40,380 bases of DNA, from positions 1 to 40,380 of the forward strand of contig DATJYL010000140.1 in NCBI GenBank assembly GCA_035499655.1. Direction: 5' to 3'. The translations under genes were made by a program, and so were the position numbers. This DNA comes from Pirellulales bacterium. Lineage in GTDB: Bacteria > Planctomycetota > Planctomycetia > Pirellulales > JADZDJ01. The notes below the pieces were generated by a model. The model had not been told where the DNA came from, searched no databases, and worked only from the letters and a program-made list of their open reading frames with translations. Positions within the stretch are counted from its first letter, which is position 1, and each line of letters begins with the position of its first letter. Below are positions 9,905-34,150 of the stretch, piece after piece.

Positions 9905-9942
9905 CCCCCCCCATCATATACGATTCGCCTTGCAAAGCTGCT

Positions 9943-10007: not shown

Positions 10008-10014
10008 CGTGCGA

Positions 10015-10068: not shown

Positions 10069-10093
10069 CTTCTACATTTCACACTGACCCGCG

Positions 10094-15398: not shown

Positions 15399-16436
15399 AG
15401 AGGCTAGTGCTAAGAGAATAACGCTGGAAGGTTCGGGAACGAGTGCCACGCGGAATCCGGTGGCGCCGACTTCGTAGAGATCGCCGGACGAAGGACCGTA
15501 GTCGTACAGTTCTTCCGGTCCATAGTAGCTAAGTAGTAATTGAGGAGAGAGGGAGGTATCGGACCACGAATCACCGCTTAAACCGCGGATGCGGGCGCCA
15601 TCAATCAGCGTTTCATTCCACTGGAAAACATCGCCCCCCATGTCAAAAGCGCCGTAGGGGCTGGCGGAAGCCGTGTAGGCCCCCACATCGGTCAGATAAT
15701 TCTGCGTGCTGCTTAAAGTTGACGAACCGGTAACAGCGTAACCGGTTGTTGGATCGTAAAAGTTGGCGGTGTCTGGCGTGTTGCCCGGCGGAGCTGAAGT
15801 GGTGGGAGCAGTGTCGATGGAAAATGGATAAATATTGTATGTTTTAGTGGAAGGATTATAGTATGCCGCTTTGTACCATTCATCTTCGGTGGGAATCACC
15901 CAAGTGGCATTGGTGTTGCGGGTGGGAAATAGAACGCCAGTGTTAAGCGTGTACGAGCCCGTTTCAGTCGTGTTCGCACCTTCTGCACCGTCCGGCTGGC
16001 CGTTATAAAGCCAATTGGCAAATCGAGCCGCATTGCTCCAACTAATGTAGGCAATAGGATGATTAGGAGAACCGATCACGCTGTACGTGTAACTGCCCGA
16101 GGCGCCATTCTGCTGGATTCCGGCGACGTGCAGGTCCGTCGCCATGTTGGAAACGTAAAGCCCATAAGGATCGGTCGCCGCCACAGCGTTCAGAAACTCC
16201 GTGTACTGGCCCACGGTCACGTCATATTCGCCAATGCTATAGTTGTAGCCGACCGATCCAATTCCACGAATGGAACCGAAGTTTAGTTGATTAGCCGTAT
16301 TGCCCGGATTACCGACTGACACGGTGACCAGGCTGGTTTGCCCGTCGGGCATGTTGAACACATCGGCGAAAGCGGTTCGGAAAAAAACAAATGAAATCGC
16401 GCAAAGCAGCGCGAGTGAAACCAAGAAGCGTTTCAT
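15360..16436 (-). CDS. Formylglycine-generating-enzyme-like (SUMF1/EgtB fold) PEP-CTERM protein, probably non-catalytic
   Basis: A 358-aa exported protein from ATG 16436 (signal peptide MKRFLVSLALLCAISFVFF; GGAGC upstream). The longer frame to 16613 is not needed. The sulfatase-modifying-factor fold is shown by GEYDVTVGQYTEFLNAV, ISWSNAARFANWL, IPTEDEWYKAAYY, the NFYDPTTG region, SPYGAFDMGGDVFQWNE and GATGFRVA. VPEPSSVILLALASLG and RAKRWPT form the PEP-CTERM tail. True formylglycine enzymes bind copper through two cysteines, and the mature part of this protein contains none, so it should not oxidise sulfatases. It may be a ligand-binding or structural surface protein. Confidence 0.85.
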   Translation of the reverse strand: MKRFLVSLALLCAISFVFFRTAFADVFNMPDGQTSLVTVSVGNPGNTANQLNFGSIRGIGSVGYNYSIGEYDVTVGQYTEFLNAVAATDPYGLYVSNMATDLHVAGIQQNGASGSYTYSVIGSPNHPIAYISWSNAARFANWLYNGQPDGAEGANTTETGSYTLNTGVLFPTRNTNATWVIPTEDEWYKAAYYNPSTKTYNIYPFSIDTAPTTSAPPGNTPDTANFYDPTTGYAVTGSSTLSSTQNYLTDVGAYTASASPYGAFDMGGDVFQWNETLIDGARIRGLSGDSWSDTSLSPQLLLSYYGPEELYDYGPSSGDLYEVGATGFRVALVPEPSSVILLALASLGLLWRAKRWPT

Positions 16437-16529
16437 CGAGCGGGCTCCGAATTCAATGGTGCAACTGAACCGTGGAGCCTTGCCTCTGTCCCAACCCATC
16501 GACTGACGCCTCCCCACTATAGCCGTGAA

Positions 16530-17000
16530 GTGGGGGCCACACAAGCAACTTTTCGCCGCATTGAGGCCGACAGCGCACTGAAAAAAACCGCCGGAGTTGA
16601 CGGATGCGAACAAGACACATCGCGTCGGTCAACGACCCTCGCTAACATACTCAGCGAGTCAGCGATGCAAATCGTCGGTCTGGCCGATGTAGCGCCGGCC
16701 AACGACATCATTCACATGAACATAAACAAAGTAGTTCAAGCTCCCCGAGTAGGACTCGAACTGGGTCACGTAAGCAAGAATCCTAGCAAAGACTTATGTA
16801 AATCGCCAGATTCCAGCGCTGCACAATCCGGTGCAATTCCGTCAAATTTTGACGCATCTTCCGATACGTCGAACAGCGGAATGGTCGGATCACCCAACCC
16901 TGACCTGGCTTTGATCATCTCTCGTTGGCCCACGTTGTCTTCTGACATCAAGAAACAGATCCTGTCTTTGCTGAGCGGGGCAACACAGGATGATCCGTGA
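16530..17000 (+). pseudogene. Possible remnant of a site-specific integrase tail
   Basis: A 156-codon frame whose parts do not form one clear protein. At 16740-16769 it reads APRVGLELGH, the phrase that arises when the antisense of a tRNA 3' half is translated and that often ends planctomycete integrases. Its last 33 residues (PDLALIISRWPTLSSDIKKQ, then ILSLLSG) resemble the WP-x-LP-containing tail found on planctomycete phage-type integrases. The catalytic Arg/His/Tyr domain is absent. Together with the IS110 transposase nearby it suggests an old integration scar. The assignment rests on remembered family patterns. Confidence 0.35.
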
Positions 17001-17539
17001 AAATTCAAATGTCAAAAAGCGTTCCCGATATTCCCATAATTATCCGTCACACGCCTAAGGACTCTTCGGCAGCTAGGAGCGGTGTCGCTTGATCACGGCC
17101 GCCAACTTTAGCCGGGGTTCTGGAAATTCCGCAAAAACGCGCGTTTGACAAGCAGTACTTTTTCGAGTCGATTTTTGGCTGCTGCATAGAGGTTTTCTGC
17201 CAAAACGGCTCTGCAAATAGCTCAAAGTCGAAGCCGTCTCCGACGTGGCAAAGCGCCAGTGTTTTTCACGAAAACGATCGATATCTTGCCGCCTCAACCC
17301 GGGCCCCAGCGCACTAAATCTGTGCTGGAATTTCGTCGCTTTCACACCGCGTTTGAGGATACAAAACAATAGGTAATCTAAGGGAACCCCCCCAGGTCAA
17401 TCCCTATGAAAACGCAGCACAATCCGCCCCTGCTACCGCGCCCAAACTTGTGAGAGCTTTGGCTCCTAATTCAGGCCGTTTGATCCACTGCGACAGTGCC
17501 CATTTGAAATGGAATTGCAATGAAGGCCCGGCTCTAGGT
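17001..17539. other. Intergenic stretch without a supported gene
   Basis: About 540 bases between the integrase-like remnant and the IS110 region. Frames up to 98 codons exist on the minus strand but lack a ribosome site, known motifs or plausible composition. A run of seven C bases occurs at 17387-17393. The area looks like eroded sequence next to mobile DNA. Confidence 0.4.
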
Positions 17540-17791
17540 CTAATCTCGTAAGGCTGATCGCTTCGCCGCGACTTCCGGGTAGTGTCCGTCAAGGTGCGCA
17601 TCCATGAGGAAGCCCGAGTCAAGGGGTAGCGGGTAAATCACGGGAACTCCCAAGCATCCATCCGGCATCCCTGACGTGCAGGCCGCCATGAGCTGAATTC
17701 GGCCGTCCCCATTCACATTTTCGGCATCAACGTGCCATGCGCATCCTACGGGGTACGGTTTGGTTCCCGCTATCTCCTTCACATTGGTCAT
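17540..17791 (-). CDS. Hypothetical 83-aa protein whose start overlaps the transposase stop
   Basis: The frame starts MTNVKEIAG and continues through VNGDGRIQLMAACTSG to HYPEVAAKRSALRD. Codon choice looks protein-like (G/C-rich third positions), but I recognise no family. Its ATG shares bases with the transposase stop in ATGA, the usual mark of translational coupling. Because insertion sequences normally end soon after the transposase, the frame probably crosses the element's boundary, so coupling may be accidental. It could be the remains of a disrupted host gene. Confidence 0.35.
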   Translation of the reverse strand: MTNVKEIAGTKPYPVGCAWHVDAENVNGDGRIQLMAACTSGMPDGCLGVPVIYPLPLDSGFLMDAHLDGHYPEVAAKRSALRD

Positions 17792-18807
17792 GCAGCTGGT
17801 GCTTCCCTCCAGGGTTGCCCGGATTTCAGGATGGCCAACATCACCCTCAAAACGTAATGGGCGGTGGCCACCAGCGCGATTTTCTTTCGGATTTCCTGAC
17901 CTTGATAAATTCGATCGAAGTGGGCGCGGATGGTCGGTGACCGCTGAATGCCTTGCCAAACGGCTTCGACAAGAAGATGCCGGACCGTGGCGGGGCCTTG
18001 CCGTGTAATGTGTCCGAGTCGGTTCGTCGAGCCAGATTGGTCTTGGCTGGGCACAAGGCCAAAGTAGCTGCCAATGGACTTCGTATCCGCAAAACGGTCG
18101 GCGCGATCCACGTAAGCTAAGACCGCCTCCGAGGTGCGAGGCCCAATGCCCGGGATCGTCTGGAGAAGCTGAACCTGTTTGTTTCCCGTAGCGAGTCGAT
18201 CAAGCGCTTGGTTCACGATTTGCACTTGCTGCGCAAACAGCGCCAACTCTTCCAGGAGCATCAAACGACGTGAGTGATGGGTCTGGCTCGGCAGTTCCAC
18301 GGCCTTCAGCCATTCGACACCCTCGTTGGTCCAGAGACGCCAGGTGCGTGGTGTGGCGATGCCGCAAGCGCGCAACAGGCTTCGTAACGAGTTTTTCGTG
18401 CGGGTTCGCTTCATCATCAAACGCTTGCGATGCTCGATGAGCTCGCGCCAGGTCCGCACCTCCTCCGAGGGAACATGGACTGCAGGCACTTCGTCGAGGA
18501 ACATGAGCTTCGCTAACTTCTCCGCGTCAATCCGATCGTTCTTGCGTTTGGACCGAAAGATGAGTCGCAGTTGCCCTGGGTGCGCTACCACAACCCGGTG
18601 AGCAAAACGCATCAGCACATCGTACAAGTGCCCATACCCGCACGACGCTTCAAAGCAGACGGCTAACGGCTCATTCCAAGACTCCAAAACCGCCACGACA
18701 TCCCTCCAGGCGCCACGCACTTTGAGCTGCTTGACGATGCAACCTTGATCGTCCAGTGCGCAAATTGTCGTGTGCCGCAAGTGAAGATCCAAACCCACGT
18801 ACCACAT
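17788..18807 (-). CDS. IS110-family transposase (DEDD, bridge-RNA type)
   Basis: A 339-aa transposase/recombinase. The start is 18807, not 18846, because GAAGGAGG lies 6 bases before that ATG and the family motif follows at once (MWYVGLDLH). The N-terminal RuvC-like DEDD residues are Asp7, Glu53 in CFEASCGYG, and Asp91 and Asp94 in KNDRIDAEK. The C-terminal domain has the helix-hairpin-helix TIPGIGPRTSEAVL (about 217-230) and SYFGLVPSQDQSGSTNRLGHITRQG, here noted by its block SYFGLVPSQ, where the catalytic serine of the family lies. The protein appears complete, so the element may be active. IS110 enzymes move without terminal inverted repeats, guided by a bridge RNA encoded beside the gene. 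Confidence 0.93.
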   Translation of the reverse strand: MWYVGLDLHLRHTTICALDDQGCIVKQLKVRGAWRDVVAVLESWNEPLAVCFEASCGYGHLYDVLMRFAHRVVVAHPGQLRLIFRSKRKNDRIDAEKLAKLMFLDEVPAVHVPSEEVRTWRELIEHRKRLMMKRTRTKNSLRSLLRACGIATPRTWRLWTNEGVEWLKAVELPSQTHHSRRLMLLEELALFAQQVQIVNQALDRLATGNKQVQLLQTIPGIGPRTSEAVLAYVDRADRFADTKSIGSYFGLVPSQDQSGSTNRLGHITRQGPATVRHLLVEAVWQGIQRSPTIRAHFDRIYQGQEIRKKIALVATAHYVLRVMLAILKSGQPWREAPAA

Positions 18808-19112
18808 AGGAACCTCCTTCGTGTTGAGTGACCTGGCCTCAGCCACGCTACTCCACTCCGGGCTTCCTTCATAGTTTCACAATTGATTTTGGCTAGTGCC
18901 TGGAACTGGGTTGTTTCCTGTTTGGTTTTTCGTGTCCGTTCGGCGAAGGTACCCGTCTTCACGTCCGGCTTGCAGCACAATACCTGTATCATTCGATCTT
19001 ACCCATGCACAATCGTCGAAGTCGATCACCGTCGTGTCAATCACGTCGCTTACGTGTTTCGATCGCGAGATTTCAATGCGGTCTAGCAGGATGCCACGAT
19101 GTCGCGCATAGC
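18808..19112 (-). ncRNA. Candidate bridge-RNA region of the IS110 element
   Basis: 305 bases upstream of the transposase without a supported gene. In the IS110 subgroup the long non-coding left end lies 5' of the transposase and is transcribed into the bridge RNA that pairs with donor and target DNA. Short complementary stretches exist (for example GATCACCGTCG and several CACGTCG/CGTG words near 19022-19065), but I could not fold it. Placement comes from family architecture; the exact ends are unknown. Confidence 0.35.
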
Positions 19113-20084
19113 TCAGGCTGCGTGCCGGTTGAGAGGACTTCGAGTGCTAGAATTTCGCACGGCATCACTCGAAAATGGGATAATCGTTTCCTCATCCACT
19201 GATTGCCAACTGCCACGATCCAAAATGTATTCCGGCGGTTTCAAGCTATCATGGTTCAGCCCGAATGAGGTCCAAGTGCAACGCTTGCGACGCGTTTCAC
19301 ATCGAATACGCTGGTTGGCGGCAATCAATTCAGGATCGGAATAACCTCGGGAATGGTCCAGGTGGAGGCATGTTGTTTGATGCCGCAGCGACTGCGGACG
19401 AATGCTGGCATTCGTCAGCCGTTCTCCAAGCTCCCGATCGAGGCCGCCATAATACAGTCGCTCGTCGAAACCATTAACACTTTCCACGTCCACTTTCCAG
19501 GCCGACGAATTATATCCGTTAAATGTCGCGCGGGTTAACGAGAATCGTTCGAATGTCCAGGCCAACCAAGGCTTGGTGACAAGGAAGCGTAGTTTCCGAG
19601 TCCACGGCATCCCCAGGGCAAGAAGTGATGTTGGGCGAAAGATACTGCCGTTCAGAATGTCCTCGCGCGAGATCCTTACGCTGAGGTCCATTGGCAAACG
19701 CACAATTCCGCCGGATAGAAATTGATTCGGTTTGGCGAAGCGGACGTGTTGAGCAACAAAGTCCTTTCGCGGGATGCAATCTCCGTCGGAAAAGATTAGG
19801 TATTCGCCTCGCGCGGCCAAAATGGCGCGGTTCAGGATGCGGCACTTTCGGAATCCTTGGTCCTCCTGCCAAACGTGCCGAAGCATTAGACCGGTATCGT
19901 GTTGCATTCGCGCAATCAATGCAGCGGTGGCTGGGGTTGAACCATCATCGGCCACGAGGATCTCAAAATGGGGATAGGACTGAGCCGAATATCCCCACAG
20001 AACTTTTGCCAACCAGTCGGGCGAATTGTAAGTGCTCAGAATTACGGAAACTTGCACCATCTTATTCCCCAGCCATGGGTCCAT
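19113..20084 (-). CDS. GT2-family glycosyltransferase
   Basis: A 323-aa GT-A-fold enzyme that should transfer a sugar from a nucleotide donor. It opens with VSVILSTYN (12-20) and has ADDGS with Asp46/Asp47 for nucleotide binding, the metal motif SDGDC (Asp100, Asp102) and an acceptor-side NGFDERLYYGGLDRELGERL-type block, noted here as GFDERLYYGG. Family relatives with GFRKCRILNRAI often decorate polysaccharides or small molecules. No membrane segment is seen. GAGGAG lies 8 bases before ATG 20084 and overlaps the stop of the preceding BKACE gene (12-base gap), so the two are translated from one message. It is the last gene of the ATP-grasp cluster; the IS110 element follows. Confidence 0.88.
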   Translation of the reverse strand: MDPWLGNKMVQVSVILSTYNSPDWLAKVLWGYSAQSYPHFEILVADDGSTPATAALIARMQHDTGLMLRHVWQEDQGFRKCRILNRAILAARGEYLIFSDGDCIPRKDFVAQHVRFAKPNQFLSGGIVRLPMDLSVRISREDILNGSIFRPTSLLALGMPWTRKLRFLVTKPWLAWTFERFSLTRATFNGYNSSAWKVDVESVNGFDERLYYGGLDRELGERLTNASIRPQSLRHQTTCLHLDHSRGYSDPELIAANQRIRCETRRKRCTWTSFGLNHDSLKPPEYILDRGSWQSVDEETIIPFSSDAVRNSSTRSPLNRHAA

Positions 20085-20096
20085 CTGATTTTCTCC

Positions 20097-20969
20097 TCAG
20101 GCGGCACGCTGAAAGGGAACGGTAGCGATCTGCGACACCACGTTCCCGGCCGGTGGAAGACCGAGTTTGTGCCGCGTGTGATCGCTGGTCGCGATTTCGC
20201 GCCCAGCTGCACGAGCGAGCCGCACGATGCGGTCGATCAAACCGGCGTTCGTGGCCAGTCGTTTTGTCTTCCAGTCAAAATAAATCGCATCTTCCAATCC
20301 CACACGGACGTGGCCACCCATTGTGACCGCCAACGAGTTAACAAAGAACTGGAAGCGACCGATGCCCGCCGCCGCCCAAGTCGTTCCCGAAGGAAGTGCT
20401 CGCACCAGCGTACACAAATTGTCAGGGGTCGCGGCCAGCGTGCCCAGCGAGCCGAGCAAAACGTTGGCATAAAACGGTGGTTCGATGAATCCTTCGTCGA
20501 CCATGTAGCGCGCATAGTCGACCATGCCCAAATCGAAAATCTCCAGTTCGGGAATGATTCCCCGTTCTTGCATGCTTGACGCCAGCCGCTGCACCATGTC
20601 CGGGGCATTAACCGATGCCTGCTTGGGAAAGTTCAGTGAGCCCAGCGTGAGTGAAGCCAGGTCCGGCTGTAGATTCAAGACTTGGCTGCGTTGCCAAAAC
20701 TCTCCATGAAGGCGGCCACTGCAAGAGCCAGAAATCAGCACTCCAGGGCACCGCTCTCGAACACCATGAAAAATTTCGGCGTAAATTTCCTCGCGGTACG
20801 TCGGAGTACCGTCCTTTTCACGTGCATGGAGGTGGAGAATTGTCGCGCCAGCGTCGACGCAACGGCGAGCATCGGCGATGATCTCCTCAGGAGAGACCGG
20901 CACATACGGGTTGTCGCTTTTTTGAGGAACCATTCCGGTAAGAGCGGCATTGATAATGAGAGGCTCCAT
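20097..20969 (-). CDS. BKACE-family beta-keto acid cleavage enzyme (DUF849, Kce-like)
   Basis: A 290-aa TIM-barrel enzyme. Family members use Zn2+ and acetyl-CoA to split a beta-keto acid into acetoacetate and a CoA ester; the founder, Kce, acts on 3-keto-5-aminohexanoate in lysine fermentation. The signatures are seen: NAALTG (7-12), the zinc pair His46 and His48 in LHLHAR, SGSCSGR, and the C-terminal GGHVRVGLED. Length is normal. The start at 20969 lacks a strong ribosome site. It stands 145 bases after ATP-grasp D and 12 bases before the glycosyltransferase. No other lysine-fermentation gene is near, so in this cluster it may supply or process a beta-keto or amino-acid-like building block; that role is inference. 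Confidence 0.9.
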   Translation of the reverse strand: MEPLIINAALTGMVPQKSDNPYVPVSPEEIIADARRCVDAGATILHLHAREKDGTPTYREEIYAEIFHGVRERCPGVLISGSCSGRLHGEFWQRSQVLNLQPDLASLTLGSLNFPKQASVNAPDMVQRLASSMQERGIIPELEIFDLGMVDYARYMVDEGFIEPPFYANVLLGSLGTLAATPDNLCTLVRALPSGTTWAAAGIGRFQFFVNSLAVTMGGHVRVGLEDAIYFDWKTKRLATNAGLIDRIVRLARAAGREIATSDHTRHKLGLPPAGNVVSQIATVPFQRAA

Positions 20970-21114
20970 GACCTATCTCGCTATCGGTGATTTAAGATGA
21001 TCAAACGCACCTAATGAAGTCAGACAAACACTGCCGACGTCATGCATCTTCAAGTTTACGGCTCGCTTTCATTGATCCTAATGCAGGTTCCTTCGCACCT
21101 TTTTCGCCTTCCGT

Positions 21115-22224
21115 TTAGGCGGCCGATATGAAGGCTGCATCCTGCCAGGTCTGCGACGCGCATCCGGTGTGCAGAATCATGCGTCGAATAATTTCTTCCG
21201 GCACTGGCAATCCGGCCTCTGTGAGGTACATGTGGGTCATGGCGGCCAGGCTACGTTCAACATAAGGATGCGTGTAACTCAATTCCCGTTCCGTGGGAAA
21301 CGATAAATTCGGATACGAATTCGTCTCCCAGACAATTGGCTCGCCTTGGGAGTCAAAGCTGTAATCGAATGCAGCCCACTGTAAATAAAGGCACCGCCTG
21401 GCCCGGTCGAGCAACGCGTGCTCGGAGGTCGGGGCTGTAAGGTAGTCAAGTTCTTCCTGGCGAGTTGCCCTACTGGCCACGCGCCTCGCGGCCCGAACTT
21501 CCCAGTGCCGAGAAACAATCAAGTGACGCCGCACACCAACCGTGCCGGCGACCACAAAGCGGCACTTGCGAAACAGGCTATCGGCTCCGGAAACATCGAT
21601 CCATTCAACGGCAATCGGACGACGCATTCGATCGAAGCGGATTTTTTCGAGATCGCTTGGCTGCCTGACCCGCACGACCGCTTTGCCGTGGCCGCAATCA
21701 TCACGGACGATGAAGGGCAAATCCAAACCGCCAAGATCGGATTGGAATTGCTGCGGATCGGAAATAGGCACGACTCGCGGCGTGCGAATTCCTTCCGCAG
21801 CGAGACGCCCAGCGGCCAGGGAGCGAATGCAATTGCTCGTGTGGGCGACGGAGTTAATGATTGGAATTCCGCGCGATTTGCATTCGGCTTCCAAGTCGAG
21901 CGCCCGAGCGTAGGTCGCGCGATCCATCCAATCGACTGCTGGATCTTGGAACCAGGGAACATAAAGCCGATAGCGAGACCAATCTCGTACTTTGCAGGGG
22001 AGTAATCGCAGCTCGAACAGCGATCGCAACTTAGGAAATTCCCTTGCCAGCCAACTCAAGTAGTAGTGCTGCAAATACGGATGCTTCCCGCCGTGTCGCG
22101 CGACAAGAATCCGCAGACCACTGTTAAGCCAGTGAATGTTCTGCCACGCATCGGCGGTGGAAACGGACATGCGGCACAACCGGCCCTTCCAAAAGTATTT
22201 GCGATGATTGCCAGAAGATTTCAC
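21115..22224 (-). CDS. ATP-grasp ligase-like protein D
   Basis: A 369-aa protein (GTG 22224; ATG 22170 is an alternative, neither with a strong ribosome site). It has an N-terminal pre-ATP-grasp part (LRILVARHGGKHPYLQHYY region, noted as ILVARHGG) and an ATP-grasp core: IRTPRVVPI, LPFIVRDDCGHGKAVV (the ATP-lid loop), IAVEWIDV, and the metal-binding set Asp287 in AAFDYSF with Glu300 and Asn302 in VWETNSYP. The fold joins a carboxylate, activated as acyl phosphate, to an amine or another nucleophile. It is a clear paralogue of protein C, 31 bases upstream, with many shared words (FELRLLPC versus FELCTLPC). No substrate can be named. Confidence 0.8.
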   Translation of the reverse strand: MKSSGNHRKYFWKGRLCRMSVSTADAWQNIHWLNSGLRILVARHGGKHPYLQHYYLSWLAREFPKLRSLFELRLLPCKVRDWSRYRLYVPWFQDPAVDWMDRATYARALDLEAECKSRGIPIINSVAHTSNCIRSLAAGRLAAEGIRTPRVVPISDPQQFQSDLGGLDLPFIVRDDCGHGKAVVRVRQPSDLEKIRFDRMRRPIAVEWIDVSGADSLFRKCRFVVAGTVGVRRHLIVSRHWEVRAARRVASRATRQEELDYLTAPTSEHALLDRARRCLYLQWAAFDYSFDSQGEPIVWETNSYPNLSFPTERELSYTHPYVERSLAAMTHMYLTEAGLPVPEEIIRRMILHTGCASQTWQDAAFISAA

Positions 22225-22255
22225 AGTATCAAGCTCAATGCGTTAAAGGTGGAGA

Positions 22256-23362
22256 TCAGGCCGATCGCCTGACTGGCGAGGCAGGTGTCCAGCCGGTGGC
22301 GACGATCTCGCTTAGGGAGTCAGGCGCTTCAATGCCCGCGCGAGTGAGATAGAGTTCAATGATTGCCGCCATTGCACGACGCTGGGCGTAATTGATGTAC
22401 TGGCGTTCGGGCTCTCGTTCGAGTCCCAGACCCGGCAAGACGTTGATTTCCCAAACAACCAGGTCTCCCGTCGGAGTGTAGCTGTAATCGAAGGCCACCA
22501 CGTCAAGACCGAGAATTCTCCTGACCTGTTGGAACCGCTGATGATTGGAATCGGGCTGCCGTTGATGCTCCATTTCTTCGCGGCAAGTGGCGGCGTTGAG
22601 ATCCCGCTTTGTACCGCGCACCTCCCACTCCTTGGCAATCTGCACCGACAATGCAATGCCGCGCTGCCCGGCGGCGAGGTAGCGATACTTGCGAAAGTAT
22701 CCATCGACGGGGCTTTGCACATTGATGAACTCCACCGCGATTGGATCCTCAAATTTCTCCAGCGGGACCCGCTCCACATCCGCCCGATTGCGGATCAAGT
22801 AGCTCTTGGTGCTGCCGCCGTGAGCGCGGTTTTCGCGAATCAGCAGCGGCAGATGCAATCCGCCGAAATCACGATTGAACTGACGATGATCCAAAATCCG
22901 CGTCATCTTTGGTGTTCGCACGCCCGCCGCGGCAATCGCTTCCGAGGCTTCGAGTTTCAAGGCCTGTAAAATCCGATCGACACGATTGATGGTTTCGATT
23001 CCACCGGCGTTCGCGATTGCTTCCAGTTCTTTCAACTGTCGATAGACATGGGGCCTGCGACTGACCATGTTTTCTGATACCCAGGGCACCACGAGACGCG
23101 TGCGCGAATCGATCCGGCTGCGGCAAGGTAATGTGCACAGTTCGAAGTATCGACGCACGTCCGGCAACTCTGTCGCGACCCAATCTAGGAATTTGCGGTA
23201 ATAACTTGTGATATGCAATCGATGCCGCACGAGCAAGATTCGCTCGTTTCCCGTAACCTGCTGCCGGTTCTCGAGAGCATCGCGAATTGTTCGCGTGGCC
23301 CAGCGCGCGCCCCTTTCCAGAGGATGCAATAGGTGATTGGCGAGGGATTGTTGACGCGGCAT
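22256..23362 (-). CDS. ATP-grasp ligase-like protein C
   Basis: A 368-aa protein, tandem paralogue of D. An Arg-rich N-terminal helix is followed by ERILLVRHRLHITSYY, VRTPKMTRI, the nucleotide loop LPLLIRENRAHGGSTKSY, PIAVEFINV and the Mg2+ set Asp292 in VAFDYSY with Glu305 and Asn307 in VWEINVLPG, which matches the classic ATP-grasp signature better than D does. The start at 23362 has AAGG about 8 bases upstream. It lies 65 bases after the GNAT gene. Both C and D keep metal-binding residues, so both are probably active, perhaps adding different units in turn or acting as a heterodimer (inference). Confidence 0.82.
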   Translation of the reverse strand: MPRQQSLANHLLHPLERGARWATRTIRDALENRQQVTGNERILLVRHRLHITSYYRKFLDWVATELPDVRRYFELCTLPCRSRIDSRTRLVVPWVSENMVSRRPHVYRQLKELEAIANAGGIETINRVDRILQALKLEASEAIAAAGVRTPKMTRILDHRQFNRDFGGLHLPLLIRENRAHGGSTKSYLIRNRADVERVPLEKFEDPIAVEFINVQSPVDGYFRKYRYLAAGQRGIALSVQIAKEWEVRGTKRDLNAATCREEMEHQRQPDSNHQRFQQVRRILGLDVVAFDYSYTPTGDLVVWEINVLPGLGLEREPERQYINYAQRRAMAAIIELYLTRAGIEAPDSLSEIVATGWTPASPVRRSA

Positions 23363-23427
23363 GACGCCTTATGCTTTTTAAAAGGGGACGGGGCAATGTT
23401 GCGTGTCGTCCAGAATTATTCCTTGAA

Positions 23428-23961
23428 TCAGAACTCCTTAACAACCACCTGGAATTCGACGCCGGGAAAGCGATTATCCGGGCTCGCAGGTCCCAGTACC
23501 CGCCATCCCCGATGTTCGAGCAACTGAGCCATGCGCGGTGAGGCCTGCCGCACGGCATGCAAGGCTCCGCGCGCTTGAGCGGCGGCATCTTGCAAATCGA
23601 GAATACGACGTCCTAAGCCGCACGCTCGGGCAAAGCGGGCCACCACCACACGGTCAGGCGCAGCCACGGGACCCGGCAACTGCAAGCCGAAGCGGAGATA
23701 CTCGTCAGCTTGATGAACCTCTGACAGCGAACGGTGCATGCTCAACCGTCCTGCGGCCGCGCACAGTCCATGGAAATCACGAATGAGCCAATGCGTGGAC
23801 CGCCCGTCGACCGAATCGCGCCACTGGCCGTTGGGGAAAGCATGGGGAGATAGAAGCCCTTCCTCGCGCCAAACGCTTATTCGAAAGCAGCAGATTTCCG
23901 CTATGACGTGCTCATCGCAGCTTTCAATTACGTGCCAAGTTGGAGGGCTAGCTAGTGGCAT
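23428..23961 (-). CDS. GNAT-family N-acyltransferase
   Basis: A 177-aa protein with the GNAT layout: N-terminal strand-helix (ICCFRISVWREEGLL), central strands (HWLIRDFHGLCAAAGRLSMH), and the acyl-CoA pyrophosphate-binding motif A as VVVARFARACGLGRRIL, that is R-x-x-G-x-G, followed by the helix and HRGWRVLGPAS. It should pass an acetyl or longer acyl group from a CoA or ACP donor to an amine. Inside an ATP-grasp cluster the natural acceptor is the ligated product or a building block. The start at 23961 has no clear ribosome site, and 192 bases separate it from ATP-grasp B, with a 50-codon frame in that gap. Confidence 0.8.
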   Translation of the reverse strand: MPLASPPTWHVIESCDEHVIAEICCFRISVWREEGLLSPHAFPNGQWRDSVDGRSTHWLIRDFHGLCAAAGRLSMHRSLSEVHQADEYLRFGLQLPGPVAAPDRVVVARFARACGLGRRILDLQDAAAQARGALHAVRQASPRMAQLLEHRGWRVLGPASPDNRFPGVEFQVVVKEF

Positions 23962-23978
23962 GGGTCCAAACGCGATTG

Positions 23979-24131
23979 CTAGCAGCAGTATTCATAGGAG
24001 ACAAGGATATCGTGTTTATCGGTCGTATCACTCGCGAAAAATAGGAAAACCTTGACGATGATATCGAGTTCACTGTTAGCAGTTCCTTTGAATACAGGGT
24101 GGTAAGTGCCTTTGATCCTCAGGGCAGGCAT
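23979..24131 (-). CDS. Candidate 50-aa peptide between ATP-grasp B and the GNAT gene
   Basis: A frame beginning MPALRIKGTYHPVFKG, with a hydrophobic DIIVKVFLFFAS middle, ends SYEYCC before TAG. It starts 22 bases after the stop of ATP-grasp B, runs in the same direction and fills most of the only large gap in that part of the cluster. Third-position GC is near half, no better than background, and no Shine-Dalgarno sequence is seen, so it may be chance. If real it could be a peptide substrate of the ATP-grasp enzymes or a small accessory protein. Confidence 0.25.
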   Translation of the reverse strand: MPALRIKGTYHPVFKGTANSELDIIVKVFLFFASDTTDKHDILVSYEYCC

Positions 24132-24153
24132 CGAAACAGAATTTCAAGCTTGA

Positions 24154-25527
24154 CTATGCTGCTCGCGCGGCTCGCCGCATAACTGCGGGTTGTAGCTTCG
24201 CAGAAAGCTGAGAATGCAGTTCATTGAGGCCTTCCGCCTGATGGGCTACCATGACGACGCTACACTTCCCCTCGGTAAAAGGGCTGAGATTTCTCGGAAC
24301 AAACCCTTGGTGCTGGCCCGGCTTGAAGAGCAATTCACCAACGGCGTCCTCCAGTGCCGAAAAGCTGTTGAGTGCCGTGGACATGTTCACGGCATAGAAG
24401 CTGCCCAGCGATGGGCCGCCGTAATTGCGCTGAATCTGATTCAATGCCGCGAACAAAGTTTGACTATATGTCGCACCGTTAATCCGGGGATTGAGCTCGG
24501 CCATTAGGAAGGATATTCCGCCGGCGGGTAATTTGTACTCGCAAAAATCAAATCCTATATGACCGGTTACACCCAAGTCTCGCAGAAAGAACATGAATCG
24601 TTCTGCTGCGGCAATCATGGCCGGGAGTTGGCCTGAATCTTTGAGCGGATACTGGTTGCCAGCGTGATCTAAGTTCCTTTCGAATACCTGTTGCGTGCAA
24701 CTGAAGCACGAGACATCACGCGTCTGCGGATCAATGAACATTCCTATGTTGGGGGAACTCGTGACTTCGAACATCGCTTCAACCAGATAGGTTATGTTAG
24801 AGTCGTTCTGTCGCAAACGCTCGATGCAGGGCGTCACTTCGTGAGTGCCGACAACAACCTGAACTGATGAGCCGTTATTGCCACAGGCTCCACGAACAAT
24901 TACCTTCCCAGTGTGACAGAGTTGGCGGCGGATTGCATTGCCCAAGTTGTACCAATCAATCGCCTTGGCAATCTCGATCACCTCGCCAGGGGCCACGGGA
25001 ATTCCAAGTGCCAGAGCCATCTGGCGGGCATGATGTTTTTGGTCGAAGTGCTCTAGCACGGCGCTATTGCCGCCAATCAACTGCACAGTTCCAGGCAGGC
25101 AGTCCTGTAAACGCTGAGCAAATTCCGTCTCGAAGCGGGTCGTCATATACGGCTGAAGTTCAACTTCTTCCGCGGGCCGAAGACTTTCGACAAGTTGCCG
25201 CCAAAGGTATTCGTCCCTGCCAAGCTTCGCGGCCATAGGTAATCCGGCAGTATCAGGCAAGTCGGGGCAGGAAATCACGTCCGCCAGACGCGGGCCGATT
25301 CCCAGTCGATTTAAGTAGGCCAGGTAACTTGCATCAGGGGGCGCATGGAGGCATACAAGATCGCCCGGTTTCGAGAACAGGAGCGAACGATCGGAGTAGT
25401 GCGCGAGTTCACAACCCCGCCAGGGCGCCAACGACGCGCACGCCATGGACCGGGCGCAATGCATGTGAAGCCGCCGACGATTCGCGGTTGCAAGCGAAGG
25501 AGCATTCATGACGAGAAAGGGTTCCAT
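24154..25527 (-). CDS. ATP-grasp ligase-like protein B (peptide-ligase type)
   Basis: A 457-aa protein, the largest ligase of the cluster. A roughly 155-residue N-terminal domain precedes the ATP-grasp part: HARQMALALGIPVAPGEV (lid entry), KVIVRGACGNNGSSVQVV (nucleotide loop, about 208-225), ITYLVEAMFEV and the metal set Asp327 in GHIGFDF with Glu344, Asn346 and Asn350 in AELNPRINGAT. The LNPR-x-N-G-A/S/T form resembles PGM1-like amide-bond ligases that join an amino acid or a peptide. Its start is 37 bases after the stop of A. The ATG at 25509 is an alternative start. The peptide-ligase link is inference from motif similarity. Confidence 0.8.
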   Translation of the reverse strand: MEPFLVMNAPSLATANRRRLHMHCARSMACASLAPWRGCELAHYSDRSLLFSKPGDLVCLHAPPDASYLAYLNRLGIGPRLADVISCPDLPDTAGLPMAAKLGRDEYLWRQLVESLRPAEEVELQPYMTTRFETEFAQRLQDCLPGTVQLIGGNSAVLEHFDQKHHARQMALALGIPVAPGEVIEIAKAIDWYNLGNAIRRQLCHTGKVIVRGACGNNGSSVQVVVGTHEVTPCIERLRQNDSNITYLVEAMFEVTSSPNIGMFIDPQTRDVSCFSCTQQVFERNLDHAGNQYPLKDSGQLPAMIAAAERFMFFLRDLGVTGHIGFDFCEYKLPAGGISFLMAELNPRINGATYSQTLFAALNQIQRNYGGPSLGSFYAVNMSTALNSFSALEDAVGELLFKPGQHQGFVPRNLSPFTEGKCSVVMVAHQAEGLNELHSQLSAKLQPAVMRRAARAA

Positions 25528-25564
25528 GCGACTGATCTTTCTTCGCAGTTAGCCCAATTAGATG

Positions 25565-26605
25565 CTATTGAGCACGCCGTCGCGTTTCCGCAATAAGCGT
25601 CAACGCCGCGCGGCGCAGACCGTCGAACTGAGCGGCAAAATCTAGGTTGTTGTCGCGTTGAATGCTCAGTCCTGTCGCCGAGGAAAAATGCCAAACATCG
25701 CCGCCGGAATTTGCCTCGATGACATACAGCTTGGCGCTCGGCGACTCGCGAATAATGTCAAAGCCCAGCAGCGGATGGTTGGGAAATGCGGCGTGCGCGC
25801 GCTGTCCTAATTTCAAAACGTCCTCGTCGTAACAAAGTTCGAACCGGCAGCCCGGACCGCTCGAAGTGATCGCCATCCCGCCGCCGTTTGCGTCACCCAC
25901 ATTAAAACCAACGGGGCTCGACAACGGGCGCCGGGTGCGTGCAGCTTCAACCTTCCAAGAAAACAACACTCGACCAAACAGGGTGGTCACGCGATAGCTG
26001 ACTGGCCAAGAGCCCGTATAAATGAATTCCTGCGCAATTAGGTCTAGATTGCCCCTGCGAACCGCCATCTTATTCGCCGGCGGTTTCCACCGCACTCGCC
26101 CCTGACGTTTGATCTTAACCTCGGCCCCGCGGCACCCTAAGTCAGGCTTCACGACCACGTACGGTCCGAAGCCGGTCAGATCGGGTGATTGGTTTTCAGT
26201 CACCAGTGCCCAGCGCGGAACGGGCACTCCGAACTGCTCCATCAACGCATATTCTGTGCTCTTTTTGAACAGACGGTTCTGACACAGGTAGCCACGCAGC
26301 GGATGGTAACGCTGCAATTGCGCCGGTGCCACTGTCAGCGCGGGTCTCAGCCACGGTGCGGGCCACAAATAGTCGTAATAGCGATCGGTCAGGATGATCG
26401 GCTTGATATCCGGCGCCAGTTCGCGAATCTTCTGTGCAATTGCGGGAAAATCTTGCGAATGTGCCCTTCGGCGCTTGGCCATCAGAATCAAGTTAAGCGG
26501 CCCGCGCGCAGGGGGCATGGATGCCAATTCTAATGAATCGACGAGCGTCTCCCGAGGCGGAGATTGCAACACAAAGGAAGAGGGCCGGTCTAAAATCGAT
26601 GCCAT
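25565..26605 (-). CDS. ATP-grasp ligase-like protein A, first gene of the cluster
   Basis: A 346-aa protein. Residues 36-110 form an alpha/beta pre-domain (LNLILMAKRRR, IKPIILTDRYYDYLW). The ATP-grasp core follows: KSTEYALMEQFGVPVPRW, VVVKPDLGCRGAEVKI with ATP-binding Lys153, IAQEFIYTG, and the metal set Asp283 in LLGFDII with Glu297 and Asn299 in YVIEANSGGD. This is the RimK/D-Ala ligase-like arrangement. The start at 26605 has AGGA about 8 bases upstream. It differs from B and from the C/D pair in sequence, so the cluster holds three separate ATP-grasp lineages. Its upstream region (26606-27156) should carry the cluster promoter. Confidence 0.82.
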   Translation of the reverse strand: MASILDRPSSFVLQSPPRETLVDSLELASMPPARGPLNLILMAKRRRAHSQDFPAIAQKIRELAPDIKPIILTDRYYDYLWPAPWLRPALTVAPAQLQRYHPLRGYLCQNRLFKKSTEYALMEQFGVPVPRWALVTENQSPDLTGFGPYVVVKPDLGCRGAEVKIKRQGRVRWKPPANKMAVRRGNLDLIAQEFIYTGSWPVSYRVTTLFGRVLFSWKVEAARTRRPLSSPVGFNVGDANGGGMAITSSGPGCRFELCYDEDVLKLGQRAHAAFPNHPLLGFDIIRESPSAKLYVIEANSGGDVWHFSSATGLSIQRDNNLDFAAQFDGLRRAALTLIAETRRRAQ

Positions 26606-27156
26606 CTGCGAGTCCTGAGGCTAGCACTGCAAGGTGCAACGATTGTCAATATCTCTGCCCTTCTATCGACTGGGCAAGCTTTGACGATTAAAAAAAGTAT
26701 GGTCATTCAGGCATGGGAACTTCCTATCGTGGGACAAACACCAAGTGGGCTGAGAGGCTAGCAACGCAATCGCAGCAGTAGGACATTACTTCACTACTTA
26801 CAACTAGGCTAGAGTGACTTGCGAATCCCCCGGAGATTCGACCAGTCCTTGCAGTTCGGACGAAGTCAGTTGTGCGCACAGCCGCGCGGAACAGGCGCGC
26901 TGAAGCAAGCCAAATGCTCCATCGCAAATACACTCAGCGCGCGACTGCGACTCGAAAAAGGGTTGGGTTGATGGGGCGTTTCTTGGACCCGAACGGCCGT
27001 CGACTGTCAGGCTGAGCACGGAGATGAGTTTTCGAGACGCCAAGAATGTGCCAACAAAGGGGTGAGTTTCTCGGAGTCCAAGAAAACGGATGCGTAATGC
27101 GGTCGAAAGGTGCAAAGACTCTTTCGCTTATTTGCTACGGTTACACTTTGCTGTAC
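26606..27156. other. Region upstream of the ATP-grasp cluster
   Basis: About 550 bases that should include the promoter for the minus-strand cluster. A 103-codon minus frame (26804-27115) covers one copy of the 47-base repeat and lacks a ribosome site; its second half (SARLCAQLTSSELQGLVES) looks somewhat protein-like and could be a gene fragment. No operator or riboswitch was recognised. Confidence 0.4.
27022..27068. repeat. 47-base direct repeat, copy A
   Basis: Shares 41 of 47 bases with copy B (28719-28765), same orientation. The conserved cores are ATGAGTTTTCGAGACGC and ATGTGCCAACAAA. The pair brackets the NHL-repeat gene. Confidence 0.75.
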
Positions 27157-28128
27157 CTAGACACACCAAGGAGCGAGATGCCCGTCGGGACTGATTTGAT
27201 GGTTTCGCCGGCGCGTTGCGACCAAGAGTATTCCCGTGCCAACACACAGCAATGCCAAGGAGGAGGGCTCTGGAACGACGCCGATCGCAATATATTGCGG
27301 ATCATGCATGACAGTACCGTCGCCGGGATCTGTTGCGAATCGCGAGGGAGTTCCATCCGGCGCGAACTCCTCGATAAAGTTGGTGATGTTTGCGGCGTAA
27401 AGGTTCCCGTCGCTGTCAAAGGCCAGGCCTAGCGGGATCGCCAAAATGGAGCTGTCGTTCGGGTCCGCAAATGCCCCTTCATCGTTGCCCAGGGAATTGA
27501 ACTCCTCGATTTTGTTATCGTTGAAATACGACACGAAGACGTTGTTGTCGCTGTCAATGGCCAGACCGCCCAGAGCATGGCCTGGGGTGGCAAATCGCGA
27601 CGGGGAGCCGGCAGGAGTGAATTTCTCAATGAAGTTAAGATTGGCCACATAGAGATTGCCCAGGCTGTCGAAGGCAATTCCCTGTGGTTGGTACACAACA
27701 GAATGGTCGCCGGGGTCGCTGGCGAACACAGACGGCGTGCCAGCGGGAGAGTACTCCTCAATCGTATTATTGCCGAATCCAGCAGCGAAAAGGTCGCCCA
27801 TGCTATCGAAAGCCAAGCCGGCCTTATTAGAAGTGCCGAAACTGGAGAAAACCGTTCCTGTTCCACCGGCGGGTGTGTATTTTTCGATCGCCGTGTTGGC
27901 GGAATTCGCGGCATAGACGTTGCCAGCGCTATCAATTGCCAATCCTTCCGGAGAGTGCAAGCCGGAGTTTGTAAACTGGGAACCGACGCCAGTTGGCGTG
28001 AATTGCTCAATCGTGTTGTTGGTATTCGACACAAAGAAGGCTTCGTCGGCGCGGGCGCTCATGGGAGCGACAGTGAAGATTGCTCCAACGCCAACCGATA
28101 GGAGCGCCAGCAGGCTATGGCTTTTCAT
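27157..28128 (-). CDS. NHL-repeat beta-propeller PEP-CTERM protein
   Basis: A 323-aa exported protein from ATG 28128 (GGAGT about 12 bases upstream; the longer start at 28221 would place 31 residues before the signal peptide). The signal peptide is MKSHSLLALLSVGVGAIF with cleavage near SARA. Five to six NHL-type blades of about 40 residues follow, each with a G-[LI]-A-[IF]-D-S-x-G-N-[LV]-Y-x-A-N pattern and an IE-[KE]-[YF]-x-P-x-G closing strand. PEP-CTERM (VPEPSSLALLCVGTG, RRR) follows, with an unusual 16-residue extension after the arginines. The role is probably binding or display on the cell surface; no enzyme site is seen. Confidence 0.87.
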   Translation of the reverse strand: MKSHSLLALLSVGVGAIFTVAPMSARADEAFFVSNTNNTIEQFTPTGVGSQFTNSGLHSPEGLAIDSAGNVYAANSANTAIEKYTPAGGTGTVFSSFGTSNKAGLAFDSMGDLFAAGFGNNTIEEYSPAGTPSVFASDPGDHSVVYQPQGIAFDSLGNLYVANLNFIEKFTPAGSPSRFATPGHALGGLAIDSDNNVFVSYFNDNKIEEFNSLGNDEGAFADPNDSSILAIPLGLAFDSDGNLYAANITNFIEEFAPDGTPSRFATDPGDGTVMHDPQYIAIGVVPEPSSLALLCVGTGILLVATRRRNHQISPDGHLAPWCV

Positions 28129-28241
28129 GTGATTAGCGACTCCTTGAACAAAAGACGCTAGCGAGTTGGGTCGAAAGATTGCAATCTTGCCTCGACATGA
28201 ATTCCTTAGTCCTTGCCGCATGACGGCAGTGATTTCAATTT

Positions 28242-28253
28242 CCCCCCCCCCCC
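28242..28253 (-). other. Homopolymer of 12 C (G12 on the coding strand) in the leader of the NHL gene
   Basis: Twelve consecutive C bases lie about 115 bases upstream of the NHL gene start, the longest mononucleotide run in the window. Such runs vary in length by slippage and can alter expression, but they are also a common site of sequencing error. Confidence 0.7.
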
Positions 28254-28447
28254 ATTATGGGCGGGTAATATGACCAAAGCAAGCACTTTTTATTGACTAT
28301 TCAGAAATTGGCGGAGCCTGAACCGCGACGAAGCACAGGATCGGTCGGAATCTAGTGCGAATGGGCCTCATCGTTTGGCGTTACGGCTGCCCCAACTCTC
28401 CAACTGGGTAAAGTAAGCGGTGCCGTGTCAACAAAAGTACCAATGTG

Positions 28448-28744
28448 TTATCGGGCTAGGGAACGGAGAGCCTCAAGATGATCAGCAAGCCAAGCGTCTG
28501 GCAGCAGTTGCGCAAGAAACTCTTCGGCAGACTTAAAGTCCCGAGGTTGACTGGCTAATTGCACGATTACGTCGTGCAAGTGTGCCCGGAGTTCCTCCGG
28601 ATTCGCTTTGAAGTTGACCGCGCAGAAGACAAATAGGCTGCCCGACGGTCGCAAATTCGTTGGTTTGCCGACGCATTTCTTTGGGTGGAACGGCAACCGA
28701 GTACCAGACCGAGAACCTAGATGAGTTTTCGAGACGCTCAGCAT
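28448..28744 (-). CDS. Hypothetical 98-aa protein or gene fragment
   Basis: The N-terminal 35 residues (MLSVSKTHLGSRSG onwards) come from the 47-base repeat and look unlike a folded protein. The last 55 residues (FKANPEELRAHLHDVIVQLA, then PRDFKSAEEFLAQLLPD and HLEALRSLAR) form a plausible all-helical unit. It could be the tail of a decayed gene fused by chance to the repeat, or a real small protein. No family is recognised, and no ribosome site precedes the ATG. Confidence 0.35.
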   Translation of the reverse strand: MLSVSKTHLGSRSGTRLPFHPKKCVGKPTNLRPSGSLFVFCAVNFKANPEELRAHLHDVIVQLASQPRDFKSAEEFLAQLLPDAWLADHLEALRSLAR

Positions 28745-28765
28745 GTGCCAACAAACCGGTCAGTT
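28719..28765. repeat. 47-base direct repeat, copy B
   Basis: The partner of 27022-27068 (41 of 47 bases identical). It overlaps the start of the 98-codon frame and the last codons of the giant surface-protein gene, whose stop is at 28760-28762. Confidence 0.75.
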
Positions 28766-31700
28766 GATGAAATAATTTGTCAGCTCGGTTTCGGACGCAG
28801 GCACAATCAAGCGGCTGGGGTTTCCGGTGCGGAAAACTGCACGGTAAAAAAGCAAGCCGCCAGCGGTGGAAATGATCGCCAGGAAAGACGCAGCGGGCTC
28901 GGGGACCGTCGCATTTGATCCACCTCCGCTGCGAAGGTCGCTAATCAACGCTTGGATGTCGGCATTGTTAAAATACCCGTCTTGATTGATGTCGCCCAGC
29001 GTAACCAAATCGGTGGCGGTCAGATCGTGGGTCGATTCGTAAGCGGCAGGATCCGCAAGCGCCGTCATCATCGCCAGCACATCGGGAGCATCAAGGGCAT
29101 TATCGCCGGTAAGATCCCCGGGGATAAGCGTTCGGCCGGGCACGACCTCGCCGGTGGCGAGTTGGACCGCATCGGGCATGCCGGAACCCGTGAACACAAT
29201 GTTGGCCAATTGATAGGCCGATAAACCGGTGGCGTCGGAGCCGACAAAGATTTGATCGGGCCCGCCGCCGGAAAGCGAGCCGCTCCAATCATCAATGGTG
29301 AGGGCCCCGCTCCAGGGTATGGCATTGCTGGCGGCAAAGTGCAGGACGCTTGTGCCTGACCCCAAGTCGATGTGCGAATTGGCGGTTACTTGTAGCTTGC
29401 CGGCGCCAAAATTGTCGCTGAATCCACCGGTGGTTAAGGTCCCACCAGCAAGTGTTAGATTCGCAGTCGTGGGAAACGTGTTGCTGGCTCCCAACTGCAA
29501 CGTTCCATGATTGATGGTCGTGGTGCCGGTGAAGGCGTTTGCGCCGGACAAGATTTCCGTGCCGGCGCCATTTTTGATGAGATTGAACGTGCCGGCGCTG
29601 GTGATCGTGCCGGTAAACCTGCCGCCGCCGTTGTTGGAGCCGATGGTCAGCGTGTCGGTATGCGAGCCGGAGAAACTGTTCACCACGGCGCCGGCGCCGG
29701 CGAGGGCGTTAATCGATTCGCTCGGTTCATCATGGAAATCGAGTGTGGTCCCGGCATCCAGCACCATGTTGCTGTTGGGCGAAAGCGCGCCGCTGGAGAG
29801 CGTTTCCAAAGTGCCCGCAGTGACGTGGGTGTCGCCGCTGTAAGTTTTAACGCCGCTGGCGAAGGTCCATTTTCCCGTACCGGATTTCACAACCGAAAGC
29901 GTGCCGCCCGATGGATCGGCCACGGCCAGACTGAGCGTGTTGTGCGCGGTGCTGGAACCCGTCAAGGTTAGGGTCGGACTGGAGCTGGCCGCAGTCGCCA
30001 GCGCGCCGGTGTTGGTGAAGCTCAATCCGCCGGAATTGTCGAGCGTGCCACCATTGGCGGTGAGTGTGAACAGCCGATTGGTCGAACCCGTGCCGGCCAG
30101 CGTGCCGCCGTCGAGAATTAAATTGCTGGCGACGTTGGACGAGGAACCGATGCCGCTGTTGGTTCCGCCATTGGCCACCACGCCGCTGATTTCGCCCCCG
30201 GTTTTGATAGTCGTGGCCCCGGTGTAGCTTTGCGAGGCGGTGACGTTCAGGTTCAACGCATTAACAGCTGCGGCACTGCCAAGACCAACCGTAACTGTGG
30301 AATTTCCGCTCAGGGCATTAATGCCGCTGACGGTTAGCGTTCCGCCGCCGCCACCGAAAGAGTACGCGCTGTTAGCCGGCGTAAGCACTCCGCTGTAAGT
30401 TACCGATCCGATGGCCCCGATGCTGATATAGGGCAGATTAGCACCGCCGTTGGCGCTCAGATTTAAATTGTTCGAACTGGAGGCGGCTAAGGCGACGACG
30501 CCTGTGGAAGTGCCGGTGATTCGTCCGAGGAAAGTTTGATCGATGGCGTATCCGGCGGCATCGGTGGCACCGGAGCTAACGGTCACACTGGCGCCGGAGC
30601 CGCCGATGCTGGCGGCGGTGTTGAATTGCAAAACGCCGCCGCTGATGGTCGTGGAACTGGAATACGTATCGGTTCCAGAAAGCACCTCGGTGCCGGCACC
30701 GGTCTTGGCAATTCCGCCGGCCCCGCCAATGGCCCCGGCGAAACTGCCGGAGGCATCACCATTGCCGAAGGTGAAAGTGCCGGCACTGACAGTGACGGTG
30801 CCGCCCCCCGACGAACCGTTATCCAGGGCGTTAATTCCCGTCGTCGTGTCGGCGACGAGGGTCGCGCCGGTGCTGACCAGCACATTTCCCTTTCCCGGGC
30901 CGGACGGCAAAAAGCCGCCCTGATACAAGCGCAAGGTGCCGGCCTGAACAGTCGTATTGCCGGAATAGGTCGAGAGTTTGCTTTCCCATAGCCAGCGTCC
31001 CGTGCCGTTCGCAATGACGGAGGTTTTGCTCGAAGCGTCGGGATCGCCCAGCGCTGGTGAAAAGGCGTTATGGGTTTCGCTGCCGATTAAATTCAGCGCG
31101 CGATTACCAGTCCCAGTGAAGGCAATGGCCCCGGTATTGGTAAAGCCCAAACCATCGCCGCTGCTGCCGGAGCCATCAATGGTGCCGCCATTGGGAGTCA
31201 TGGTAAACAGACGATCGGTGCTGACGCCTGCTGTGCCGGTGAATTGTAGCGTGCCGCCGTCGAAGACCAGATTCGCCGCCGCATTCGTGGATTGGCCCAG
31301 CGGTCCGGCAACGCCACCATTGCCGATGGTTACGATGTTCAGAATTCCGGCGGACAGGGTCGTGGAACCAGTGTACGTGTTGGCGCTGGTAACCGACCAC
31401 GTACCGCTGCCGTTTTTAATGATCGAGCCGGTGCCGATGGAACTGCTAATGACACCCGAATAAGACTCTGTGTTGGCGCCGACCGACAGGGTTGTGCCTT
31501 TCAAATCCAGGCCTTGGGAGCCGGACAGTCCGCCAAACGTGGCGTTGAAACCGTTCAGATCGAGCACAATGCCGGTGGTGGTCAAATTCACCGTGCTTTT
31601 TCGCAAGGCCAGCGCGTTGCCTAAACGCAGGGTACCGGCCGAAATGTTGGTATCGCCAGTGAAGCTGTTCGTTCCGCTCAACACCAGCACGCCGGCGCCG

Positions 31701-34141: not shown

Positions 34142-34143
34142 TT

Positions 34144-34150
34144 CCCCCCC
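34144..34150 (-). promoter_or_regulatory. G7 tract serving as or replacing the ribosome site of the giant surface protein
   Basis: On the coding strand GAGA and seven G bases stand two bases before ATG 34141. This decides between that start and the in-frame ATG at 34177, which has no ribosome site and would put charged residues before the signal peptide. Slippage in the tract could change translation efficiency. Confidence 0.45.

Follow-up and report, generated by a model that had tools for sequence, protein, structure and literature searches.

Pathways that form amides without a nonribosomal peptide synthetase (NRPS), by pairing an ATP-grasp enzyme with another amide-forming enzyme, are established for E-64 (PMC12568646) and NAGGN (PMC8070244). 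In this work, we compare such systems with a cluster of seven genes at positions 26605-19113 of a contig from a Pirellulales bacterium, which encodes four ATP-grasp proteins (A, B, C and D), a GNAT acyltransferase, a member of the beta-keto acid cleavage enzyme family (BKACE) and a family-2 glycosyltransferase (GT). The window, meaning the whole stretch of DNA analyzed, is one entire contig (C140, 40380 bases) of a 4.54-Mb draft genome that is 97% complete. Its PEP-CTERM and dockerin-like proteins, and relatives of its proteins in planctomycete records, speak for a planctomycete. The BKACE, the GNAT and a D-type ATP-grasp occur together in four genomes of three phyla and constitute a conserved core. 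We give an even chance to the locus being a sporadic specialized-metabolism island, built from parts of mixed history around this core, that makes a small amide-linked molecule without an NRPS.

The NAGGN system (Ngg/AsnO) resembles the cluster in combining GNAT activity with ATP-dependent peptide ligation to yield an N-acylated dipeptide without an NRPS (PMC8070244). The two differ in that Ngg alone both acetylates and ligates while AsnO amidates, whereas here the GNAT and the ligase are separate genes and the cluster holds a BKACE and no AsnO; none of the seven proteins has an NCBIfam Ngg or AsnO match, which places the cluster outside the NAGGN pathway. The E-64 and dapdiamide pathways likewise form amides stepwise and independently of an NRPS, through an ATP-grasp and a second amide-forming enzyme (PMC12568646), but there the second enzyme is an amide bond synthetase, the ATP-grasp belongs to another lineage, and a core of BKACE and GNAT is lacking. 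In a literature that included few subscription journals, no paper was found that describes this gene combination or joins BKACE-type enzymes with ATP-grasp enzymes, in keeping with the remark of a preliminary description of the locus, made from the DNA alone, that no such pathway was known to it.

The seven genes are as follows:

25565..26605, minus strand: gene A, ATP-grasp of 346 aa, distantly related to the cyanophycin synthetase/RimK class and occurring sporadically among planctomycetes (open reading frame and profile of relatives)
24154..25527, minus strand: gene B, ATP-grasp ligase of 457 aa with a PreAtp-grasp domain (PF18604)
23428..23961, minus strand: GNAT acyltransferase of 177 aa, core gene (predicted structure and acyl-CoA loop)
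22256..23362, minus strand: gene C, ATP-grasp of 368 aa, a separate lineage of D's family (family alignment and tree)
21115..22224, minus strand: gene D, ATP-grasp ligase of 369 aa in the RimK/LysX class, GTG start, core gene (predicted structure)
20097..20969, minus strand: BKACE of 290 aa, core gene (PF05853)
19113..20084, minus strand: family-2 glycosyltransferase of 323 aa (PF00535)

All seven are encoded on the minus strand, beginning with A and continuing with B, GNAT, C, D, BKACE and GT, and the gaps from A to GT are exactly 37, 192, 65, 31, 145 and 12 bases, just as the preliminary description had given them. Its family assignments are supported by profiles and structure prediction, and the metal-site Asp, Glu and Asn that it listed are present at all 12 positions (Asp283/Glu297/Asn299 in A, Asp327/Glu344/Asn346 in B, Asp292/Glu305/Asn307 in C and Asp287/Glu300/Asn302 in D), being invariant in the alignments of the A relatives and of the C/D relatives. 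On a qualitative judgement, a run of seven intact open frames with recognizable folds is not a chance pattern.

A conserved core of three genes

The C/D family was sought with two peptide patterns in 84,980 species genomes, which gave 69 loci, 24 of them strong. At two of the loci, L051 and L052, the neighbors of the ATP-grasp are relatives of the window GNAT and BKACE, and a further locus, L154, was reached through a GNAT profile:

L051 (Aestuariirhabdus metagenome-assembled genome (MAG), gammaproteobacterial): BKACE 4526-5362, GNAT 5359-5889, ATP-grasp 5886-6947, all overlapping
L154 (gammaproteobacterial, of the same order as L051): BKACE 7601-8479, GNAT 8476-9030, ATP-grasp 9015-10091, overlapping
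L052 (actinobacterial MAG): GNAT 9297-9815 overlapping ATP-grasp 9812-10867, with the BKACE convergent and adjacent

Together with the window, these make four genomes, a number that is a lower bound, the scans other than the two-pattern one being samples. Each locus outside the window is a single record, mostly from a MAG; gene calls there are our own open-reading-frame calls, and those at the high-GC loci (the neighborhoods of the A relatives and of the GNAT-profile matches) were made with a simple composition score and are approximate. The ATP-grasps of all three loci resemble D more than C.

The GNAT relatives are 37-42% identical to the window protein, each adjoining a BKACE and a D-type ATP-grasp. 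In a set of twenty genomes that carry C/D relatives, a strong GNAT match occurs only in L051 and L052, the other 18 reaching at best E 2e-4; among 369 genomes of the class of L051, only the L051 genome itself has one. Scans across classes and orders added a single weak match (E 4e-10), to an ordinary GNAT in another context, from a genome of the same class as L052. Judged from these searches, the GNAT is specific to loci carrying the core. The window BKACE is 56-57% identical to those of both gammaproteobacterial genomes and 44% identical to that of L052. Since the best plasmid BKACE also reaches 51.5% identity, similarity of this protein alone is no strong evidence for the core; gene order is. 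That plasmid protein is encoded at L164 (Streptomyces camelliae plasmid NZ_CP115301.1) in a roseoflavin-like cluster (rosB, ribA, ribC), where it adjoins a methyltransferase gene and a galactosyltransferase-related gene; its neighborhood was checked for a GNAT and a ligase and has neither.

The other four genes do not share this distribution. None of 145 related genomes, among them one from the same genus, has a match to ATP-grasp C, and a search with the DNA of 20700-40380 in 56 relatives gave no match across the cluster part; a search for the C/D family in 392 genomes of the phylum returned one other strong carrier. Relatives of A number two among 293 other genomes of the phylum (38-42% identity), in two other planctomycetes; neither has core genes beside it, and one adjoins a methyltransferase gene. 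Gene B has no close relatives in 56 related genomes and none on plasmids. These searches thus reject conservation of the cluster as a whole. The preliminary description had named scattering of the genes among relatives as grounds for refutation, and such scattering is partly what is seen; the BKACE, the GNAT and the D-type ATP-grasp, and only these, travel together.

The core enzymes

The window BKACE scores 290 bits with PF05853. Its residues His46, His48, Glu226, Arg222 and Asp227 align with those of the 3-keto-5-aminohexanoate cleavage enzyme (Kce) and are invariant in the core, so that the zinc ligands and the active-site Arg, Glu and Asp of the family are kept. The protein shares with Kce and BsfD the PF05853 fold family and the metal ligands, but differs from Kce in that Glu14 and Tyr145 of the latter are replaced by Val and Phe, as they are in all four core BKACEs. 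With the Kce model it scores 271 bits against a cut-off of 382, and with the 3-oxoadipate model 242 bits against 350; it thus falls outside the Kce family, and a preference for an aminated substrate such as 3-keto-5-aminohexanoate (KAH) is unlikely. BsfD, a DUF849 enzyme of phosphonate biosynthesis that has Phe at the position of Tyr145, is reported in a preprint to transfer an acetyl group and not to cleave a beta-keto acid (PMC12871164). It is an example of a BKACE-like enzyme within a natural-product cluster, and it lacks the Kce tyrosine (PMC12871164). Phe also stands at this position in three uncharacterized proteins among the four nearest solved members of DUF849, so the residue does not decide the chemistry of the BKACE.

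The GNAT scores below its Pfam cut-off. Its predicted structure (pLDDT 87.3) adopts the GNAT fold and aligns to several members of the family at Z about 16, and its loop R-A-C-G-L-G, the acyl-CoA loop, aligns with R-x-x-G-x-A in the relatives; the predicted fold and the R/Q-x-x-G-x-G/A loop together assign it to the GNAT superfamily.

ATP-grasps C and D belong to one family, with 33% identity between them. Neither has a Pfam family match; the best NCBIfam match of both is the RimK subfamily TIGR00768, at 22.1 and 23.0 bits against a cut-off of 143.4, which leaves them outside RimK proper. In a 22-sequence alignment the family keeps Asp287, Glu300 and Asn302 together with a D-x-x-R-K-x-R segment, and a profile built from it matches chains of PurK, RimK, Ddl and LysX. 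D is predicted (pLDDT 88.6, pTM 0.87) to have the RimK/LysX fold, and its nearest solved folds are LysX (Z 21.6), RimK (Z 21.0) and ArgX (Z 20.4), with 260-268 residues aligned. LysX, ArgX and RimK join amino acids to carboxylates. D shares their fold and the Asp/Glu-x-Asn metal site, but is only 14-15% identical, has a long N-terminal helix, and no LysW or S6 partner is seen.

The C/D pairing suggested at first holds at the level of the family, but not at that of sisterhood: C and D as sisters or tandem duplicates are rejected by an approximately unbiased (AU) test (p 0.003). In the tree, C pairs with the planctomycete protein L029 (support 100/99), while D is placed, weakly (76/86), with the core-locus ATP-grasps and the ATP-grasp of L049. 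At L029 (5120-6921), this nearest relative of C adjoins a gene for an amino acid kinase that matches MfnE weakly (47.9 bits, cut-off 300), which may hint at a cofactor of the furan type.

The remaining ATP-grasps and the glycosyltransferase

Gene A scores 18.1 bits with Pfam ATP-grasp_3, under the cut-off of 23.2, and a profile built from three A relatives matches cyanophycin synthetase and RimK-domain chains at E 0.0025-0.1. The superfamily assignment of A thus comes from the profile only; that of B comes from Pfam, that of C from its family and that of D from its predicted structure.

B is a PreAtp-grasp protein (PF18604, 49.6 bits, cut-off 27.5) that matches the ATP-grasp region of pyruvate carboxylase at E 0.0012. 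An initial pattern scan of species-genome contigs with B returned nothing, and PreAtp-grasp proteins of other planctomycetes are too distant from it to be useful. The PreAtp-grasp domain, above its cut-off, is a likeness to the PGM1-type and BesA ligases, but with the BesA model B reaches 14.3 bits (cut-off 750), and no gene for a precursor peptide was identified, no systematic search for one having been made. A comparison of the D family with A or B by hhalign gave no significant whole-length match. None of the four ATP-grasps matches a known housekeeping enzyme above a curated cut-off; the preliminary description had named such matches as grounds for refutation. The GT scores 71.5 bits with PF00535, and a weak match to the galactosyltransferase C-terminal family PF02709 (21.1 bits) falls slightly under its cut-off.

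The wider C/D family

Relatives of C and D occur in six phyla (Planctomycetota, Cyanobacteriota, Pseudomonadota, Myxococcota, Verrucomicrobiota and Actinomycetota) and in varied gene contexts. They adjoin glycosyltransferase genes in Nostocales and on contigs C134 and C154 of the window's own genome, and a Methyltransf_24 gene in seven loci of several phyla (L005, L006, L030, L033, L039, L046 and L050), two of which are other contigs of that same genome. At L047 the C/D domain is fused to a methyltransferase domain, and at L046 (9815-12784) a C/D-family ATP-grasp and a TupA-like one (PF14305, 92.7 bits) share a single open frame. This fusion is a link to the TupA-like teichuronopeptide ligases, but none of the four window ATP-grasps matches PF14305.

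At L049 (6650-11044), in a Sphingomonadales MAG, a BshA-like gene, a gene for an unknown 408-aa protein, BshB1 and a C/D-family ATP-grasp gene follow one another with overlapping ends. The BshA-like protein scores 256.7 bits (cut-off 273.7) and BshB1 238.7 bits, above its cut-off; the locus looks like a bacillithiol-like pathway whose ATP-grasp could replace or follow BshC. A bacillithiol link of the core itself was rejected, the best BshA scores being 133 bits in the window's genome and 130 and 122 bits in G544 and G545, the two other core genomes of this test, against the cut-off of 273.7. Taken together, the C/D proteins look like a group of ligases for amines, deployed with amino sugars and with small molecules alike.

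Proposed pathway and alternative explanations

In the proposed pathway, the BKACE would let a beta-keto acid and acetyl-CoA exchange an acyl group, thereby supplying or consuming a CoA ester. The GNAT would use an acyl-CoA to acylate an amine, which might be the free amino group of an amino acid or that of the ligation product. D would turn a carboxylate into an acyl phosphate and join it to an amine, in the manner of LysX and RimK. C, B and A could attach further units in the window's genome, and the GT could add a sugar. The families, the catalytic-site residues, the predicted folds of D and the GNAT and the conservation of the three-gene core are the observed basis of this scheme. It retains part of the stepwise peptide-like assembly first suggested for the cluster: RimK/LysX-class ligases beside a CoA-dependent acyltransferase do point to stepwise amide formation, but the seven genes are no conserved unit. 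A stronger form, in which the BKACE, the GNAT and the RimK-class ligase are a dedicated three-enzyme pathway across distant phyla, leading to an N-acylated amide metabolite of an undescribed kind to which the planctomycete adds three ligases and a sugar, is possible but doubtful.

Several points weigh against the scheme. Every substrate in it, the order of the steps and a pathway shared by A, B, C and the GT are inferred. These four genes are absent from the other core loci, and proximity is consequently the only reason to place them in one pathway; in the window the core itself is interrupted by C and by the 145-base gap. In the tree, the four core ATP-grasps fall on one side of a branch supported at 68/53, so that a single clade is compatible with the data and weakly supported. 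No transporter, resistance or regulatory gene was recognized within the cluster.

The C/D-family ligases might instead decorate a glycoconjugate by loading amino acids, with or without an acyl group, onto the amino sugars of a glycolipid or polysaccharide, with the GT at 19113-20084 serving the same product. The contexts of the wider family with amino sugars support this for some of its members: relatives adjoin glycosyltransferase genes or, in seven loci, a Methyltransf_24 gene, one is fused in frame to an ATP-grasp of the teichuronopeptide enzyme type, and that of L049 follows genes of the BshA and BshB1 kinds, which make and deacetylate an amino-sugar conjugate. For the present locus it seems somewhat unlikely, as the core operons of L051 and L154 have no glycosyltransferase or sugar genes nearby, the enzymes nearest to D in fold work on amino acids and peptides, and a GT beside a cluster is common by chance. 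A patchwork without a single pathway, where the GNAT, D and the BKACE are one unit and A, B, C and the GT are independent acquisitions alongside, would account for the occurrence of A and C relatives in other planctomycetes away from the remaining six genes, for the absence of B and the GT from other core loci, for the transposase gene downstream and for the lack of the whole cluster in relatives. We regard it as unlikely, because the seven genes are co-oriented with short gaps and four ligases of one superfamily are unusual as random neighbors.

A catabolic role, with the BKACE degrading a beta-keto acid of a lysine, carnitine or beta-ketoadipate route beside unrelated neighbors, is highly improbable. 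Enzymes of the BKACE family are mostly catabolic, and the protein scores with the lysine-fermentation and 3-oxoadipate models, but both scores lie under the curated cut-offs, the Val and Phe replacements run through all core members, no other catabolic gene is nearby, and a tight operon with a GNAT and a ligase in two genomes does not fit such a role.

If the core makes one metabolite, as the amide scheme would have it, it would represent a compact NRPS-free amide pathway of three genes and about 2.5 kb, expressible in a laboratory host and chemically solvable. It would also provide a first function for an ATP-grasp family that has no Pfam model, spans six phyla and is found in settings that range from glycan loci of cyanobacteria to an operon resembling that for bacillithiol.

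Genomic setting

An IS110-family transposase gene lies at 17788-18846, 266 bases downstream of the cluster. The region 16000-30000 has no Rfam RNA-element match, and promoter and terminator predictions were no more numerous than in shuffled sequence. None of the seven proteins matches a PADLOC anti-phage model at E 0.01, on which ground a defense system was rejected, and a plasmid origin was rejected, with no plasmid relatives of A, B or D and only a partial plasmid match of the GNAT.

Elsewhere in the window, a 121-base non-coding stretch (26948-27068) directly downstream of a PEP-CTERM NHL-repeat gene recurs in a genome of the same genus (80%) and on contig C160 of its own genome (74%), the latter copy likewise directly downstream of a gene for a dockerin-like secreted protein. 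At 32232-34191, which encodes part of an 1805-aa repeat-rich secreted protein, the DNA shares 80% identity with contig C95 of the same genome, so that this protein has a close paralogue. At 936-4243 there is a small fatty-acid or polyketide-like set of two FabA-like dehydratases, an acyl carrier protein and a beta-ketoacyl synthase, followed at 4544-6062 by a tandem of three small heat-shock-like proteins, of the Hsp20 type as judged by eye.

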